Shown: positions 56,450-62,058 of the stretch, in pieces | Layout of the letters: each line of letters opens with the position of its first letter | Position numbering within the stretch: position 1 is the stretch's first letter | Source: Actinokineospora auranticolor | Lineage (GTDB): Bacteria > Actinomycetota > Actinomycetes > Mycobacteriales > Pseudonocardiaceae | DNA: 64,000 nt | Direction: 5' to 3' | Assembly: GCF_002934265.1 (NCBI RefSeq) | Contig: NZ_PTIX01000010.1 | Location: forward strand, 1 to 64,000 | Notes under the pieces: generated by a model | The model's input: only the letters and a program-made list of their open reading frames with translations | Database searches by the model: none | What the model was told of the DNA's origin: nothing | Position numbers and translations under genes: made by a program

Positions 56450-56716
56450 ATGGCGGGTGTGGAGGAGCTGCGTTCGTGGGTCGCGGTGGCGACTCAGCGG
56501 ACCCAGGGCGCGGTCGCGGCGGTCGCGCAGGCGTCGTTGCAGCTCGAGGAGGCGCGGACCGCGCTCGTGGCCGCGGGCTCCGCGATCGGCACGGGGTCGG
56601 CCGAGCTGGACCGCTCGTCCGGGTTGCTCGACGAGGCCCGGGCGTCGCTGGCCGAGGCCCAGCGCGCCGCCATGGCCGCCGTCTCCACCGCCGAGGCGTA
56701 CGCGGCCCGCCGTTGA
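56450..56716 (+). CDS. Small helical-hairpin protein upstream of the FtsK-like ATPase
   Basis: This 88-residue Ala-rich protein is predicted as two long amphipathic helices (about 3-42 and 50-86) separated by GSAIGTGS. Size and shape recall WXG100/ESAT-6-type proteins, but there is no WXG motif. TAGCCT (56436-56441) lies 8 nt before ATG 56450 and no ribosome site is visible, so it is probably leaderless and heads the operon. The ATPase gene follows after 84 bp. Function is unknown. Confidence 0.55.
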   Translation: MAGVEELRSWVAVATQRTQGAVAAVAQASLQLEEARTALVAAGSAIGTGSAELDRSSGLLDEARASLAEAQRAAMAAVSTAEAYAARR

Positions 56717-56800
56717 CACGCGGTGCGGGCGCGCCGGGTAGCGGGACGCGCGCACGGGTAGCCCGTCCGCGGGTAGCCACTGTCACGAGGAGAAACCCCG

Positions 56801-59512
56801 ATGCTGGGTAGGCGGGAGCGCAGGGATCGCGCGACCGAGGCGTTCAACCGGCTGCGCACCGTGTTGAACCGGGCGTTGGGCGCGGCGGCGGGGGCGCGGG
56901 AGCGGGCCGAGGTCCGCAAGCGGCAGCTGGAGTTCGAGCGCGAGGTCCAGCGGGTCGGGCTGGGCGCCGCCGCGCTGGACCCGGAGCTGGCGGAGAAGCT
57001 GGCCGACCCGGCGTTCGCGCAGGTGTGGGCCCGGATCAACGCCGAGCGCGACGAGAGCTACGTCGAGTGGCGGGCCGAGGGCCTGGGCGCGGTGCGGGAG
57101 CTGGTCGCGGCCGAGGCGTGGGGTCCGGCGGGGGCGCACTGGGAGCACTGGCTGGGCGCGATCGGGCAGGACCCCGGGGTGCGCTCGCCGCGGCTGTGGC
57201 GGATCGGGTCGGCGCAGGTCGAGCACGCGTCGCCTGCGGACGGGTTCCCGCTGGCGGTGCCGTTGTTGGACCAGGGGAACCTGCGGTTGAACTCGGTGCC
57301 GGAGGCGCGCGCCGCGGTGGACTCCATCGTGGAGACGCTGCTGCTGCGGCTGCTGAGCACGTTCACCCCGGGTCTGGTGCGGCTGCACCTGTGGGACATC
57401 GGGCACCTGACCGGTCCGCTGCCGAACCTGCACCCGCTCACCGCGGGCGGGCTGCTGGTCGTGCACGACCCGACCCGGCTCGACGACCTGCTGGGCCTGC
57501 TGGCCGGGCACATCCGGAAGGTGCACGCGAACGCGTTGCGCGCCTCGGGCCGCACGACGCTGCGGGAGGCCTGCGAGGTGGCCGGGCGGCGGGTGGAGCC
57601 GTGGCGGGTCGCGGTGCTGTTCGGCAACGGCGAGCGGCTGGCCGACGAGCAGTACCGGGAGCTGAACCGGGTCGCCCGCACGGGACCGGACGCGGGGGTG
57701 CACCTGATCCTGGTGGACATGCCGGTGTCCGCGAGCAGTCCACTGGAGACGGTGAGCTTCACCGACGCCGAGCGGGCGACGGCGAGCATCACCGGCCCGG
57801 GCATCGTGGTGCGGGCCGACCCGCCGATGCCGCCGGGGATCGTCAGCCGGGCCGCCGCGGCGATCCGCGACGACGTGGTGGTGCGCCGGGGCAGGCCGCG
57901 CTCGTTCGTCGACCTGCTGCCGGACGAGCTGGGCCGGGGCAGCTCCCGCGAGGAGCTGCGCACGGTCATCGGGTTCGACGAGGGCGAGCCGGTGGAGGTG
58001 GTGCTGGGCGACGCGACCCCGCACGCGCTGGTCGCCGGGCCGAGCGGGTCGGGCAAGACGAACTTCCTCTACGCCATGCTCGGTGGCTTCGCCGCCCGGT
58101 ACCCGCCGGACGAGCTGGAGCTGTACCTGTTGGACTTCAAGGAAGGCGTGTCGTTCGCGGGTCTGACCCCGGGCCGCAAGGACCCGAGTTGGCTGCCGCA
58201 GGCGCGGCTGGTCGGGGTGAACGTCAACACCGACCGCGAGTTCGGGTTGGCGCTGCTGCGGTACCTGACCCGTGAGCTGGCGCGGCGCGCGGAGGCGGCG
58301 AAGCGGCAGGAGGTCACCAAGCTGGCCGAGCTGCGCGACGCGGAGCCGGAGGCGCGGTGGCCGCGGATCGTCGCGGTGATCGACGAGTTCCAGGCGCTGT
58401 TCGGCAGCCGCGACCAGATCACCCAGCAGGCCGCGGCGCTGCTGGAGGACGTGGCCAGGCGCGGCCGGTCCCAGGGCATCCACCTGGTGCTGGCCAGCCA
58501 GGACATCGCCGGGATCGAGGCGTTCTGGGGCAAGCCCGCGGTGTACGACCAGTGCACGCTGCGGATCGCGATGCCCAAGGCGAAGCGGGTGCTGACCGAC
58601 GACAACTACGCGCCGGTGAGCCTGCCCCGCTGGCACGCGGTGATCAACCACGATTCCGGTGTGCCGCACGGCAACGAGGTCGCGCACGTACCGGACGCGT
58701 CGAGCCGGGGCACCTTCGACGAGTTGCAGCAGCGGCTGTGGCGGGAGCAGGCGGGGGCGGTGCCGCGGCTGTTCGACGGCGCGCACCAGCCGGACCTGGC
58801 GTCGGCGCCGGAGTTCGCGCACCCGTCGGGTCCCCTGCTGGGTCAGGTGATCGCGGTCGAGGACAGCGCGGCGACGCTGCGGGTGGAGCCCGCGCCGGGC
58901 CGGAACCTGGCGGTGCTGGGCACGGCGCAGAACGACGCTTTGTCCATTTTGGACAGCCTGGCGCTGTCGCTGGGCAAGATCCACCGGGGCGAGAACTGCG
59001 AGTTCCACCTGTGGTGCGCGGTCGCTTCGCTGAACGAGCACGTCGCGCTGGTCCAGCACGCGCTGGAGGACATGGGGCACCGGGTGCACCCCCGGTTCGA
59101 CAGCGTGATCCCGGACTTCCCCGACAACGGCGTGCCGCAGTTCGTGTTCTTCTACGCGGTGGACGCGGCGCACCCGGTGTTGGAGGTCAAGGAGGGTTTC
59201 GGCCCCAGCGGCCTGGACCGGCTGCGGGCGCTGCTGAAGAACGGGCCCGCCAACCACGTGCACACCTTCGGCTGGTGGCGCGGGGTCGGCAGGCTCAAGG
59301 ACACCCTGGGCTTCGCGGGCACCGACGACGTCGGCGCCTGGGTGGCGCTCGACGTCCAAGGCGCCGAACTGAACGCGTTGGCGGCCGGGCAGATCGTGGA
59401 CTGGTCACCGCGCCCGCACCGGGCGATCTTCTTCGACCGGTCCACGCACAGCAGACCGGACGTGCTGATCCCCTTCGACACCACCACCGCGCTGCACCCG
59501 GAGGAGTCGTGA
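56801..59512 (+). CDS. Soluble FtsK/EccC-like tandem ATPase
   Basis: This 903-residue protein has an N-terminal coiled region (about 1-60) and a mixed domain to about 330. An FtsK/SpoIIIE ATPase domain follows, with GPSGSGKTNF (about 412-421, Walker A), LYLLDFKEG, IVAVIDEFQALF (about 523-534, Walker B) and VLASQDIAG. A second domain (about 680-890) looks like a degenerate copy: the P-loop position reads LGTAQNDAL without Lys, and it ends RAIFFDRSTHSRP. Tandem active and inactive ATPase domains are typical of EccC in type VII secretion, but no membrane span is seen. GAGGAG precedes ATG 56801. Confidence 0.75.
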   Translation: MLGRRERRDRATEAFNRLRTVLNRALGAAAGARERAEVRKRQLEFEREVQRVGLGAAALDPELAEKLADPAFAQVWARINAERDESYVEWRAEGLGAVRELVAAEAWGPAGAHWEHWLGAIGQDPGVRSPRLWRIGSAQVEHASPADGFPLAVPLLDQGNLRLNSVPEARAAVDSIVETLLLRLLSTFTPGLVRLHLWDIGHLTGPLPNLHPLTAGGLLVVHDPTRLDDLLGLLAGHIRKVHANALRASGRTTLREACEVAGRRVEPWRVAVLFGNGERLADEQYRELNRVARTGPDAGVHLILVDMPVSASSPLETVSFTDAERATASITGPGIVVRADPPMPPGIVSRAAAAIRDDVVVRRGRPRSFVDLLPDELGRGSSREELRTVIGFDEGEPVEVVLGDATPHALVAGPSGSGKTNFLYAMLGGFAARYPPDELELYLLDFKEGVSFAGLTPGRKDPSWLPQARLVGVNVNTDREFGLALLRYLTRELARRAEAAKRQEVTKLAELRDAEPEARWPRIVAVIDEFQALFGSRDQITQQAAALLEDVARRGRSQGIHLVLASQDIAGIEAFWGKPAVYDQCTLRIAMPKAKRVLTDDNYAPVSLPRWHAVINHDSGVPHGNEVAHVPDASSRGTFDELQQRLWREQAGAVPRLFDGAHQPDLASAPEFAHPSGPLLGQVIAVEDSAATLRVEPAPGRNLAVLGTAQNDALSILDSLALSLGKIHRGENCEFHLWCAVASLNEHVALVQHALEDMGHRVHPRFDSVIPDFPDNGVPQFVFFYAVDAAHPVLEVKEGFGPSGLDRLRALLKNGPANHVHTFGWWRGVGRLKDTLGFAGTDDVGAWVALDVQGAELNALAAGQIVDWSPRPHRAIFFDRSTHSRPDVLIPFDTTTALHPEES

Positions 59513-59868
59513 CCGATCCCGCCGCCCGCTACCGCGAACTGCTGGACACCGCGCACCGCGCCGCCCGCAAGCACACCGACCACGAACGGCGGCGGCTGAT
59601 CGACTTGGTCGCCGAGATCCACGCCACCGATAAGGAGATCCACGCCGCGACCGAGGCGGAGGCCCAGGTCGTCGGCGAGATCAACGGCTGGTGGCGGCAG
59701 GTGGTGAACTCGGTGGAAGGCCAGAGCTGGCTGGTGACCACCCCCCGCCCGGCCCCGGACACCACCGCGCGACCGGAGAGCCTGCGGGAGTACCTGGCCC
59801 AGATCGAACCGGCCACCAAGGCGTTCCGGACCGCGTTGCGGAAAGCGATGTGGCCCCGGCGGCCGTAA
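59509..59868 (+). CDS. Small helical protein coupled to the FtsK-like ATPase
   Basis: This 119-residue protein, rich in charged helices (YRELLDTAHRAARKHTDHER, then AEIHATDKEIHAATEAEAQ), has GEINGWWRQVVNS in the middle and a basic C-terminus (KAMWPRRP). It is not recognised. GTG 59509 overlaps the ATPase stop by 4 nt (GTGA), so the two proteins are probably made together and may interact. Confidence 0.6.
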   Translation: MTDPAARYRELLDTAHRAARKHTDHERRRLIDLVAEIHATDKEIHAATEAEAQVVGEINGWWRQVVNSVEGQSWLVTTPRPAPDTTARPESLREYLAQIEPATKAFRTALRKAMWPRRP

Positions 59869-59913: not shown

Positions 59914-59944
59914 TGCGCCAACCGTACAATTGATCGGTTGCGCA
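59914..59944 (+). promoter_or_regulatory. -10 box flanked by an inverted repeat upstream of the HelD-like gene
   Basis: TACAAT (59925-59930) is a good -10 hexamer. It lies between TGCGCCAACCG (59914-59924) and CGGTTGCGCA (59935-59944), arms that pair with one bulge. A repressor bound here would block transcription. No clear -35 is visible. Confidence 0.45.
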
Positions 59945-59970
59945 CTTCTGCCGTGGGGGAAATCTCAACC

Positions 59971-62058
59971 GTGAACCAGCCCGTCCTCGAACCCGAGATA
60001 CGCGCCGAGCGCGACTACATGGACCTGTGCCGGGTCACCCTCACCGCGATGCGCGAGGAGGTCGCGGCGATGCTGGCGACCGGCGCGGGCGAGGGCGACG
60101 CGGTCGTCGACAAGTACCTCAACAACGCGCTGCGCGAGGTCCGGGTGCGCGCGCTCGAGGAGTTGGCCGACCTCGACGACGTGCCGCTGTTCTTCGGGCG
60201 CCTCGACTTCCCGCCGGGCGAGGTCCACGACGGCGACGTGGTCCGCGCCGCGGGCTCGCCGACCCACCCGCCGGACCGGGACCTCGTCTACATCGGACGG
60301 CGCGGTGTCCGCGACGACGACGGCGAGCCGCTGGTCATCGACTGGCGCGCGGCCGTGTCGCGGGCGTTCTACGAGGCGGCCCACCAGGACCCGATGGGCG
60401 TGCGGGTCCGGCGCCGCTACGGGTTCGACACCAGGGGCCTGGTGACCGCCTACGAGGACGAGGCGCTCACCCCGCGGGCAGCGGCGGGCGGGGACGGCCT
60501 GCTGGCCGCCGAGATCGAGCGCCCGCGCAAGGGCCCGATGCGCGACATCGTCGCCACCATCCAGCCCGAGCAGATGCGCTTGGTGCGCGCGCCCCTGGGG
60601 GACACGGTGTGCGTGCAGGGGGCGCCGGGAACGGGCAAGACGGCGGTGGGGCTGCACAGGTTGGCGTACCTGCTCTACGCCGAGCGGGACCGGTTGCGCC
60701 GGGACGGCGGGGTCGCGGTCATCGGGCCGAACCGGGCGTTCCTGTCCTACATCCGCAACGTGCTGCCCGCGCTGGGCGAGGTGGAGGTCGCGCAGACGAC
60801 GATCGAGGAGGTCACCGGGGCGCGGCTCGCGGTCGGCCGGGTGGACGAGCCCGACGCCGCCCGGGTCAAGGGGGACGCGCGGATGGCCGAGGTCGTCCGC
60901 CGGTACCTGCGGTCGCGGATCCGGCGGCCGGTCGACGGGGTGGAGGTCAAGCGGCAGAACCGGGTGTGGCGGGTGCCGGTGGAGTACTTCGCCGCCGAAC
61001 TCGACGCCGTGCTCGCCCGGGACCTCGACTACGGCCCGGGCCGCGACCTGCTGGCCAAGCGGCTGGCGCTGCGCGTGCTGCGGCGGATGGAGTTGTCCGG
61101 TATCGGCTCCTCGTCGGTGGAGGCGCTGGCCCGCGACCGCGGCATCGACCGGGCCCTGCGCGCCGTGTGGCCCGCCGTCAACGCCGCGCGGGTCGTGTTC
61201 GACCTGCTCACCGACGCGGCCGTGCTGGCGGAGGCGGCGGACGGGGTCCTGTCCCCCGACGAGCAACAGGTCGTCCTGCGCACCCCCAAGCCCAGGTCGG
61301 TGAAGGCGATGACGTGGAGCAGCCTGGACCTGGCGCTGCTCGACGAGGTCGCGGGCAGGCTCGCCCGACCGGCCCGGCTGGGGCACGTCGTGGTCGACGA
61401 GGCCCAGGACCTGAGCCCCATGCACCTGCGCGCGATCGCCCGCAGGCTGGCGGGTTCCTGCACCGTGCTCGGCGACCTGGCCCAGGCGACGAGCCCGGCG
61501 GCGGTGTCGGACTGGGCGGCCGTGCTCACCCACCTCGATCGCGCGGACGGGCGGATCGCCGAGCTGACCCGCGGCTACCGCGTCCCGGCCCAGATCATCG
61601 ACTTCGCCGCCCGCCTGCTGCCGCGCATCGCCCCGGACCTGCGCGGCCCGGCGTCCTTCCGCAGCAGGCCGGGTGCGCTGAACCTCGAGGAGACCACCCC
61701 CGAGAAGCTCGCCGCGACCATCTCCGCGACCTGTGCGACGGCCCTGGTCGAGGAGGGGTCCGTCGCCCTCATCGCGGCCGACGCCGACCTCCCCGCCATC
61801 GCCGAGGCCTTGGCGGACGGCGGGTTCCGCTACGTCGTGCTCGGCGACGACGCCGACCCGGAGGCCGAACGCCTGGCACTCGTGCCGGTGACCCTGGCCA
61901 AGGGCCTCGAGTTCGACACCGTCCTGGTCGTCGAGCCGTCCCGCATCGCCACCGCGGAACAGCGCGGCCTCCAGCGCCTCTACGTGGCCCTGACCCGCGC
62001 GGTGACCACCCTGCACGTCATCCACGCCGACCCGCTGCCGGAGGCGCTGCGGTTCTAG
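59971..62058 (+). CDS. HelD/HelR-like RNA-polymerase-associated ATPase (UvrD superfamily)
   Basis: This 695-residue superfamily-1 ATPase has an N-terminal coiled region, then LVYIGRRGVRDDDGEPLVID (a HelD-family hallmark). Other motifs are QGAPGTGKTAVGLHR (Walker A), VVVDEAQDLSP (Walker B), TLAKGLEFDTVLVVEPS and RLYVALTRAV. HelD proteins release stalled RNA polymerase; the HelR branch protects against rifamycins in Streptomyces. The start is uncertain: GTG 59971 with GGGGGAA upstream, or a leaderless TTG at 59938. Its stop shares CTAG with the stop of the convergent corA-like gene. Confidence 0.8.
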   Translation: MNQPVLEPEIRAERDYMDLCRVTLTAMREEVAAMLATGAGEGDAVVDKYLNNALREVRVRALEELADLDDVPLFFGRLDFPPGEVHDGDVVRAAGSPTHPPDRDLVYIGRRGVRDDDGEPLVIDWRAAVSRAFYEAAHQDPMGVRVRRRYGFDTRGLVTAYEDEALTPRAAAGGDGLLAAEIERPRKGPMRDIVATIQPEQMRLVRAPLGDTVCVQGAPGTGKTAVGLHRLAYLLYAERDRLRRDGGVAVIGPNRAFLSYIRNVLPALGEVEVAQTTIEEVTGARLAVGRVDEPDAARVKGDARMAEVVRRYLRSRIRRPVDGVEVKRQNRVWRVPVEYFAAELDAVLARDLDYGPGRDLLAKRLALRVLRRMELSGIGSSSVEALARDRGIDRALRAVWPAVNAARVVFDLLTDAAVLAEAADGVLSPDEQQVVLRTPKPRSVKAMTWSSLDLALLDEVAGRLARPARLGHVVVDEAQDLSPMHLRAIARRLAGSCTVLGDLAQATSPAAVSDWAAVLTHLDRADGRIAELTRGYRVPAQIIDFAARLLPRIAPDLRGPASFRSRPGALNLEETTPEKLAATISATCATALVEEGSVALIAADADLPAIAEALADGGFRYVVLGDDADPEAERLALVPVTLAKGLEFDTVLVVEPSRIATAEQRGLQRLYVALTRAVTTLHVIHADPLPEALRF

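Follow-up and report, generated by a model that had tools for sequence, protein, structure and literature searches.

A Soluble EccC-like ATPase Cassette of Pseudonocardiaceae That Probably Handles Hairpin-Tagged Toxins

The genome of Actinokineospora auranticolor (8.4 Mb; RefSeq assembly GCF_002934265.1) carries on its contig 10 (NZ_PTIX01000010.1) a compact cassette of three genes. It was studied in a stretch of 64,000 nucleotides, positions 1 to 64,000 of the forward strand, which is referred to here as the window. The cassette encodes a helical hairpin protein (P0001), a soluble FtsK/EccC-like ATPase (P0002), and a third small protein (P0003) whose GTG start overlaps the ATPase stop codon in the tetranucleotide GTGA. 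The trio probably handles or exports toxins that carry a hairpin related to P0001. We give a probability of roughly 0.55 to the reading that the cassette supplies the targeting and motor functions in the cytosol for a system that resembles the type VII secretion system (T7SS) and serves hairpin-tagged clients. This reading is carried by the architecture of the ATPase, the conservation of the trio, the co-occurrence of its parts, and a contrast between tag and signal on the toxins, all of which are direct observations. An earlier sequence-only reading of the window had recognized the three open reading frames, each of which was confirmed in place, and its overall interpretation is partly supported.

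Conservation of the Cassette

The linkage of the three genes was followed through 80 homologous loci taken from species genomes. A homolog of the hairpin gene lies upstream of the ATPase gene in 78 of them (76 by tblastn and two by profile), and one of the two remaining loci sits at a contig edge. The third gene follows the ATPase in 80/80 loci, mostly with an overlap of 4 or 8 bases (−4 or −8). With such figures, the linkage is not due to chance. The proposal that tight packing marks a single linked unit is thus upheld, and the small genes are kept with the ATPase across Pseudonocardiaceae, as the proposed neighbourhood comparison was meant to establish. Among 120 genomes sampled evenly across the family, 94 encode the ATPase, which is single copy in 92 of these. 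The hairpin co-occurs with it perfectly, both being present in the same 94 genomes and neither in the other 26. Two ATPase-lacking genomes fall apart in a tree of chromosomal FtsK (p-AU, from the approximately unbiased test, 2e-4 against one clade), which implies at least two origins of the joint absence if the ancestor had the cassette.

The ATPase is rare beyond the family, with 5 of 396 genomes of the phylum positive at 1e-30, the window's own included. The closest relatives by cassette locus are Actinokineospora species, with ATPase identities of 67–78%, and the clusters of the ATPase gene tree track genera. The cassette is a vertically inherited trait of Pseudonocardiaceae rather than a mobile one. 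Its flanks change by genus and consist of unrelated housekeeping or genus-specific genes. Besides the trio, the genera have no gene in common here, and a conserved wider operon was rejected on this ground. EccB, EccD, or EccE (or EssA/B, EsaA) were not encountered in the locus, and no linkage of the cassette to ESX loci was seen in the flanks examined.

Candidate Clients of the Hairpin

A hairpin profile that was built without any toxin finds more hairpins in ATPase-positive genomes, and one set of these is encoded immediately upstream of proteins that end in a DddA-like deaminase domain. A search with PF14428 located DddA-like toxins in 59 of the 120 family genomes, and Imm1 immunity genes adjoin several of the toxin genes. 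A hairpin was called above 10 bits, either as the N-terminal domain of the toxin or as a small upstream gene. By this measure, it is present at 31 of 43 toxin loci in ATPase-positive genomes versus 0 of 7 in ATPase-negative ones (p 5e-4, a value that serves only as a guide, since the loci combine top-scoring matches with a manual selection, are not a random sample, and are related by descent). Only 2 of 141 reversed-sequence controls pass 10 bits, and none of the WXG100, P0003, and ATPase-coil controls do so. Above 15 bits, there are 27 toxin-locus sequences versus a single reversed control and no other helical control, and the best matches begin at the first residues of the toxin.

The same toxins differ in their N-terminal hydrophobicity. 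All seven toxins of ATPase-negative genomes carry a strongly hydrophobic N-terminal segment (15-residue score of at least 2.47), typical of a signal peptide or a membrane anchor. Such a segment is found in 0 of the 41 scorable toxins of ATPase-positive genomes, all of which score 1.92 or lower. The search for DddA outside the family matched 1 other genome of 392, which provided no contrast. The sequence-only reading had left a choice between secretion, DNA pumping, and a defence-like role; its secretion-like option gains support because of these hairpin-tagged deaminase toxins, and nothing specific favours DNA pumping.

Architecture of the ATPase

The identification of P0002 as an EccC-like ATPase proved sound, as its best Foldseek match is the EccC of T. 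curvata (4nh0; E 2e-28). In Pfam, FtsK_SpoIIIE matches residues 388–570 (E 4e-22), and the NCBIfam model EccCa matches at 2e-23, yet far under the family cut-off. The ATPase core alone matches the mad8/SspH models of PADLOC, and no single known anti-phage system in PADLOC was specifically matched by all components of the cassette. No transmembrane segment was found: the highest Kyte–Doolittle value over 19 residues is 1.31, in agreement with the earlier claim of a soluble protein, and the highest among 38 relatives is 1.97.

An AlphaFold2 model based on 38 family sequences (predicted local distance difference test, pLDDT, 85; predicted template modelling score, pTM, 0.69) displays an N-terminal helical region followed by three FtsK/RecA-like domains: degenerate, active, and degenerate. 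An active and a degenerate domain had been expected and both are present, but an additional degenerate domain precedes the active one. The helical region occupies the place of the transmembrane part and stalk of EccC and has no hydrophobic segment. Domain N lacks a Walker A motif and resembles the DUF domain of EccC5 (8rin; VIA-align Z 15.0 over residues 100–361); the latter is likewise a degenerate ATPase domain, its Walker A forming an extended helix (PMC11154593). Walker A and Walker B are present only in the middle domain. In domain C, a GWWR motif (824–827) takes the place of the sensor motif found in the active domain, and W825 and W826 are nearly invariant, distant relatives included.

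The order of the domains was compared by hhalign with a profile of 18 EccC sequences. The global alignment of the ATPase with EccC DUF-D1-D2 gives E 1.6e-63 versus 1.4e-42 with D1-D2-D3. By single domains, the middle one is closest to D1 (6e-30) and the last one to D2 (2e-7, versus 0.006 for D3). This suggests that D3 is absent, and the ATPase looks like an EccC whose membrane part has been swapped for a coil and which would have dropped D3. Locus L097 (3947-6868; second copy in genome G038) holds a soluble relative in which the Walker A of the active domain is destroyed (GRSDADRS), a possible regulatory pseudo-motor.

The Two Small Proteins

AlphaFold2 predicts P0001 as a two-helix hairpin (H2-46, H50-87; pLDDT 90.9), as the sequence-only reading had anticipated for a protein of WXG100-like size and shape without the motif. 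It is 88 residues long here and 86 in most relatives. Neither WxG in the turn nor a C-terminal YxxxD/E occurs in any of 78 homologs (0/78). The turn reads G-S instead of W-x-G, and the C-terminal tail has its own pattern, with Y at −5 in 76 of the 78, R at −2 in 73, and L as the last residue in 71. P0001 has no Pfam match to WXG100 (PF06013), and its relatives match only below threshold; a close homolog at locus L098, which scores 42.9 bits with the family profile, has a weak WXG100 match (E 0.011). The best Foldseek match by TM-score (template modelling) is the type III secretion protein YscO, which is not significant, and no WXG100 structure is among the hairpin matches listed. A search of PDB sequences with the hairpin profile returned nothing meaningful. 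A link to DUF6244 was sought with a search that matched nothing in any genome and is hence uninformative.

The third protein is evolving faster, with a mean identity of 37% in alignment A3, and Y8 and W62 are invariant in it. Hydropathy indicates no transmembrane segment, and a search of PDB sequences with its profile gave nothing meaningful, the best matches being designed coiled coils. For both small proteins, Pfam, NCBIfam, and PADLOC gave no significant or specific match. The coordinates of all features are collected in Table 1.

Table 1. Genes, domains, and motifs of the three-gene cassette, in positions of the window.
Feature	Position	Strand	Basis
Hairpin gene P0001, 88 aa	56450..56716	+	Partner/tag family; AlphaFold2 hairpin; upstream homologs; genome co-occurrence
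C-terminal tail YAARR of P0001	56699..56713	+	Family consensus Y-x-x-R-L
ATPase gene P0002, 903 aa, soluble FtsK/EccC-like	56801..59512	+	Pfam, NCBIfam, AlphaFold2, Foldseek
N-terminal helical/coiled region, residues 1-110	56801..57130	+	AlphaFold2 helices 2-52, 54-59, 61-66, 70-105
Degenerate FtsK-type domain N, residues 112-366, EccC DUF-like	57134..57898	+	VIA-align, profile alignment
Active FtsK domain M, residues 367-655	57899..58765	+	Walker motifs; hhalign to EccC D1
Walker A GPSGSGKT, residues 413-420	58037..58060	+	Invariant in 38 relatives
Walker B IVAVIDEF, residues 523-530	58367..58390	+	At least 95% conserved
Degenerate FtsK-type domain C, residues 656-903	58766..59509	+	hhalign to EccC D2
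Third gene P0003, 119 aa, GTG start	59509..59868	+	80/80 loci; alignment; no transmembrane segment

Hairpins resembling P0001 also occur on loci that look like integrative elements. At L139 (5023-5934), L140 (5033-5587), L141 (4558-5430), L142 (4867-6658), and L150 (4189-5253), they form the C-terminus of longer open reading frames and are preceded by a Pro/Thr-rich linker. There, GG-T/S precedes an internal Met or Val, as a Shine–Dalgarno sequence and a start codon would give, so the hairpin may be made both fused and alone. The N-terminal domain of the L150 frame matches Peptidase_M50B, and that of L142 contains an HEAAH motif. Two further loci of this kind, L136 (5239-5805) and L137 (4965-5846), hold a tandem pair and a triplet of hairpin paralogs of exactly 86 residues, one of which matches DUF6507 at threshold. 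One of these loci lies beside genes for FtsK-like and RapZ-C-domain proteins and the other near a Zot-like gene. The tandem paralogs are possible cargo or decoys.

Relation to Described Systems

The sequence-only reading could not match the cassette to a described system, and here it has to be corrected. Soluble ATPases in which only the middle domain is active, accompanied by WXG100 proteins, were described as a “mobile T7SS” (Zhang et al. 2012, PMC3482391). The Type III-A CoCoNuT extension includes a soluble YueA/EssC-like ATPase that was assigned to defensive secretion (eLife 2024, PMC11090510); the same paper attributes the stand-alone form to Anantharaman et al. (2012) and reports one of its two small proteins as lacking WxG. 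The architecture of the cassette matches this class: three FtsK/HerA domains with the middle one alone active, no transmembrane segment, a predicted N-terminal helical coil in place of the membrane helices, and small WXG-like hairpin proteins next door, although the motif is absent in the cassette. A Caballeronia locus that belongs to this class is related in sequence (tblastn 4e-31). Unlike the described class, which is mobile and defence-linked, the cassette is spread over most of its family, is grouped by genus, has no defence neighbours, and lacks vWA/TerY-P, CARF, and nuclease genes, and its clients appear to be DddA-like toxins. The published domain order of the class is D1-D2-D3, whereas the cassette ATPase fits DUF-D1-D2 better, an assignment that would revise the published one. 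The cassette is thus a vertically inherited, actinobacterial, non-WXG variant of the soluble YueA/EssC-like class. New are the vertical form in Pseudonocardiaceae, its hairpin without WxG, the assignment of the domains as DUF-D1-D2, and the toxins as candidate clients; none of these was located in the literature searched, as far as its incomplete open-access coverage allows.

Distant homologs of the ATPase, all of them soluble, share about 25–31% identity and fall into groups by their linked genes. In a tree of the active domain, 39 soluble sequences (Caballeronia CoCoNuT included) stand apart from 9 EccC with full support (SH-aLRT, the Shimodaira–Hasegawa-like approximate likelihood ratio test, 100), on long branches. 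The group at L099-L102 and L105 combines Hsp70, DnaJ-TPR, sometimes GrpE, the ATPase, a coiled-coil protein, and a hairpin. It represents a chaperone-linked version that is plasmid-borne in Rhodococcus, and no description of such loci was located in the literature searched. When complete, these loci resemble the cassette in their hairpin of about 86–90 residues and in a coiled-coil protein that overlaps the homologous ATPase gene. They differ in having their own Hsp70 chaperone set and in transmembrane segments in the DnaJ protein and, at two loci, in the coiled-coil protein; among distant relatives, the protein in the position of P0003 is sometimes tail-anchored in the membrane. A second group, linked to TerD or WXG100-like genes, comes from mycobacterial-type genomes (L103, L107), and L106, which lies on a plasmid, is of the CoCoNuT type and includes genes for vWA, WXG100, CARF, PP2C, and kinase proteins. 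Some related loci hold WXG100 proteins in the same setting as the hairpin. The L100 hairpin beats all 2000 shuffles with the family profile and that of L105 is marginal; homology of the cassette hairpin to those of L102, L103, L106, and L107 was rejected, as their scores are indistinguishable from shuffled sequence.

In comparison with EccC/EssC of ESX systems, the cassette ATPase shares the fold, the co-linear domains, an active domain nearest to D1, and a small helical-hairpin partner. It differs in having neither transmembrane part nor stalk, no EccB/D/E nearby, and, by best alignment, no third C-terminal domain. P0001 is similar to WXG100 proteins in being a two-helix hairpin of roughly 100 residues encoded beside an FtsK ATPase and differs from them in its turn and its conserved tail. 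Polymorphic toxins of the LXG/WXG type combine an N-terminal helical domain with a C-terminal toxin and have small helical partners; T7SS toxins are covered in PMC3482391. At some of the toxin loci described above, the toxin gene is likewise preceded by that of a small partner and followed by an immunity gene, but the N-terminal domain of these toxins belongs to another family, and the hairpin-tagged ones co-occur with the soluble ATPase.

Proposed Function and Alternatives

The simplest account gives the hairpins the role of targeting or partner domains for the motor, like that played by WXG100 and LXG domains in T7SS. The ATPase is probably hexameric like other FtsK/EccC motors; its middle domain would hydrolyse ATP, and the two degenerate domains may be structural or regulatory. 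P0001 would be the prototype of a family of non-WXG helical hairpins that serve as adaptor and targeting tag, docking probably through the conserved tail. The clients would include DddA-like double-stranded-DNA deaminase toxins with their own or an upstream-encoded hairpin. The motor would engage them, alone or paired with the small hairpin, and feed them to a putative membrane exit, so that the hairpin tag would replace the Sec-type signal used in cassette-lacking genomes. The missing channel could come from a resident ESX system or from an unlinked locus, and P0003 may be a cassette-specific cofactor, possibly an adaptor.

Several points weigh against this proposal. The main weakness is the lack of any gene for a membrane component in the cassette or its surroundings, which leaves export a putative step. 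The seven toxins of ATPase-negative genomes come from three genomes only and are not independent. Twelve of the 43 toxin loci in ATPase-positive genomes score below 10 bits, and the hairpin similarity is weak for some toxins. The hairpin fold itself is common, and Foldseek found nothing for P0001 under E 1. No toxin gene lies beside the cassette in the window. The window's genome has three DddA-like genes outside the window (L169, L186, and L187, at C11:244548, C2:219226, and C12:225640), and a hairpin reaches 10.5 bits in one of them but stays below threshold in the other two; one of the latter has an 85-residue helical gene upstream, also below threshold. Moreover, no DddA-like toxin is present in 40 of the 94 ATPase-positive genomes, which means that the cassette must serve other clients as well.

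The alternative that survives best, although we consider it unlikely, is an intracellular defence or conflict module in which the ATPase and the hairpins control tagged effectors (deaminases, peptidase-like proteins) against phages or integrating elements, and nothing is exported. A cassette devoid of membrane parts would suit such a module, as would the relatives of the ATPase in CoCoNuT/TerY-P defence loci and the occurrence of hairpin paralogs close to FtsK-like translocases on loci that look like integrative elements. The neighbours of the cassette are nevertheless not defence genes: a PADLOC scan of 77 flanking proteins gave no model with more than two matches, so a defence-island context was rejected and the enrichment near defence genes that had been suggested was not found. 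In addition, the cassette is mostly single-copy and vertical, unlike typical defence genes, and the Imm1 genes, together with the signal- or membrane-like segments that these toxins bear in other genomes, speak for exported toxins. It is still less probable that the ATPase is an ESX adaptor that loads hairpin clients onto an EccBCDE channel encoded elsewhere. Two EccC genes and WXG100 genes do lie elsewhere in the genome and would supply the channel, but the cassette shows no linkage to ESX genes and its hairpin lacks the WxG and YxxxD/E signals. The probability is low that the trio is a housekeeping unit of Pseudonocardiaceae unrelated to toxins, with the toxin hairpins being convergent or merely an ancestral helical domain. 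The hairpins are simple helices and some toxin scores are weak, as this account would have it; the excess of toxin-locus sequences over reversed controls above 15 bits and the start of the best matches at the first toxin residues argue against it. Lastly, an FtsK/HerA-like machine that pumps chromosomal or plasmid DNA with small structural partners is very improbable, for although the active domain also finds structural matches in the FtsK motor and TcpA (Z 25–28), sequence and domain order fit EccC better and the hairpin recurs on toxins, not on DNA-binding proteins.

Neighbouring Genes

About 70 bases past the cassette, a 706-residue UvrD/HelD-like helicase is encoded (59938-62058), a neighbour that is not kept in relatives. 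In 22 Amycolatopsis loci, a DNA-methyltransferase-like gene lies on the opposite strand about 4 kb upstream (for example L037 3572-5323, L050 6230-7921) and is genus-specific. On a contig labelled Rhodococcus rhodnii (L022), the cassette is as near to the query as that of Kibdelosporangium; the genome is probably mislabelled or contaminated.

Significance

Since 2012, soluble ATPases of the EssC-like kind have received passing mention without a demonstrated substrate. Their hairpin partner in the cassette now leads to specific candidates for that role, the DddA-like deaminase toxins with Imm1, and a natural contrast is at hand, as the same toxins bear a signal- or membrane-like segment where the motor is absent. 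Together, the candidate clients and this contrast make the function of the soluble ATPase class directly testable. The system also yields a new domain for toxin targeting, together with a supply of deaminases of the DddA type, a kind employed in base editing. For the Pseudonocardiaceae, it may represent a new export route, a proposal to which we give somewhat less than even odds, in which a soluble, three-domain EccC-like motor would recognize a new non-WXG hairpin tag ending in Y-x-x-R-L and deliver polymorphic DNA-deaminase toxins, while mobile elements would bring along further tagged cargos or decoys.

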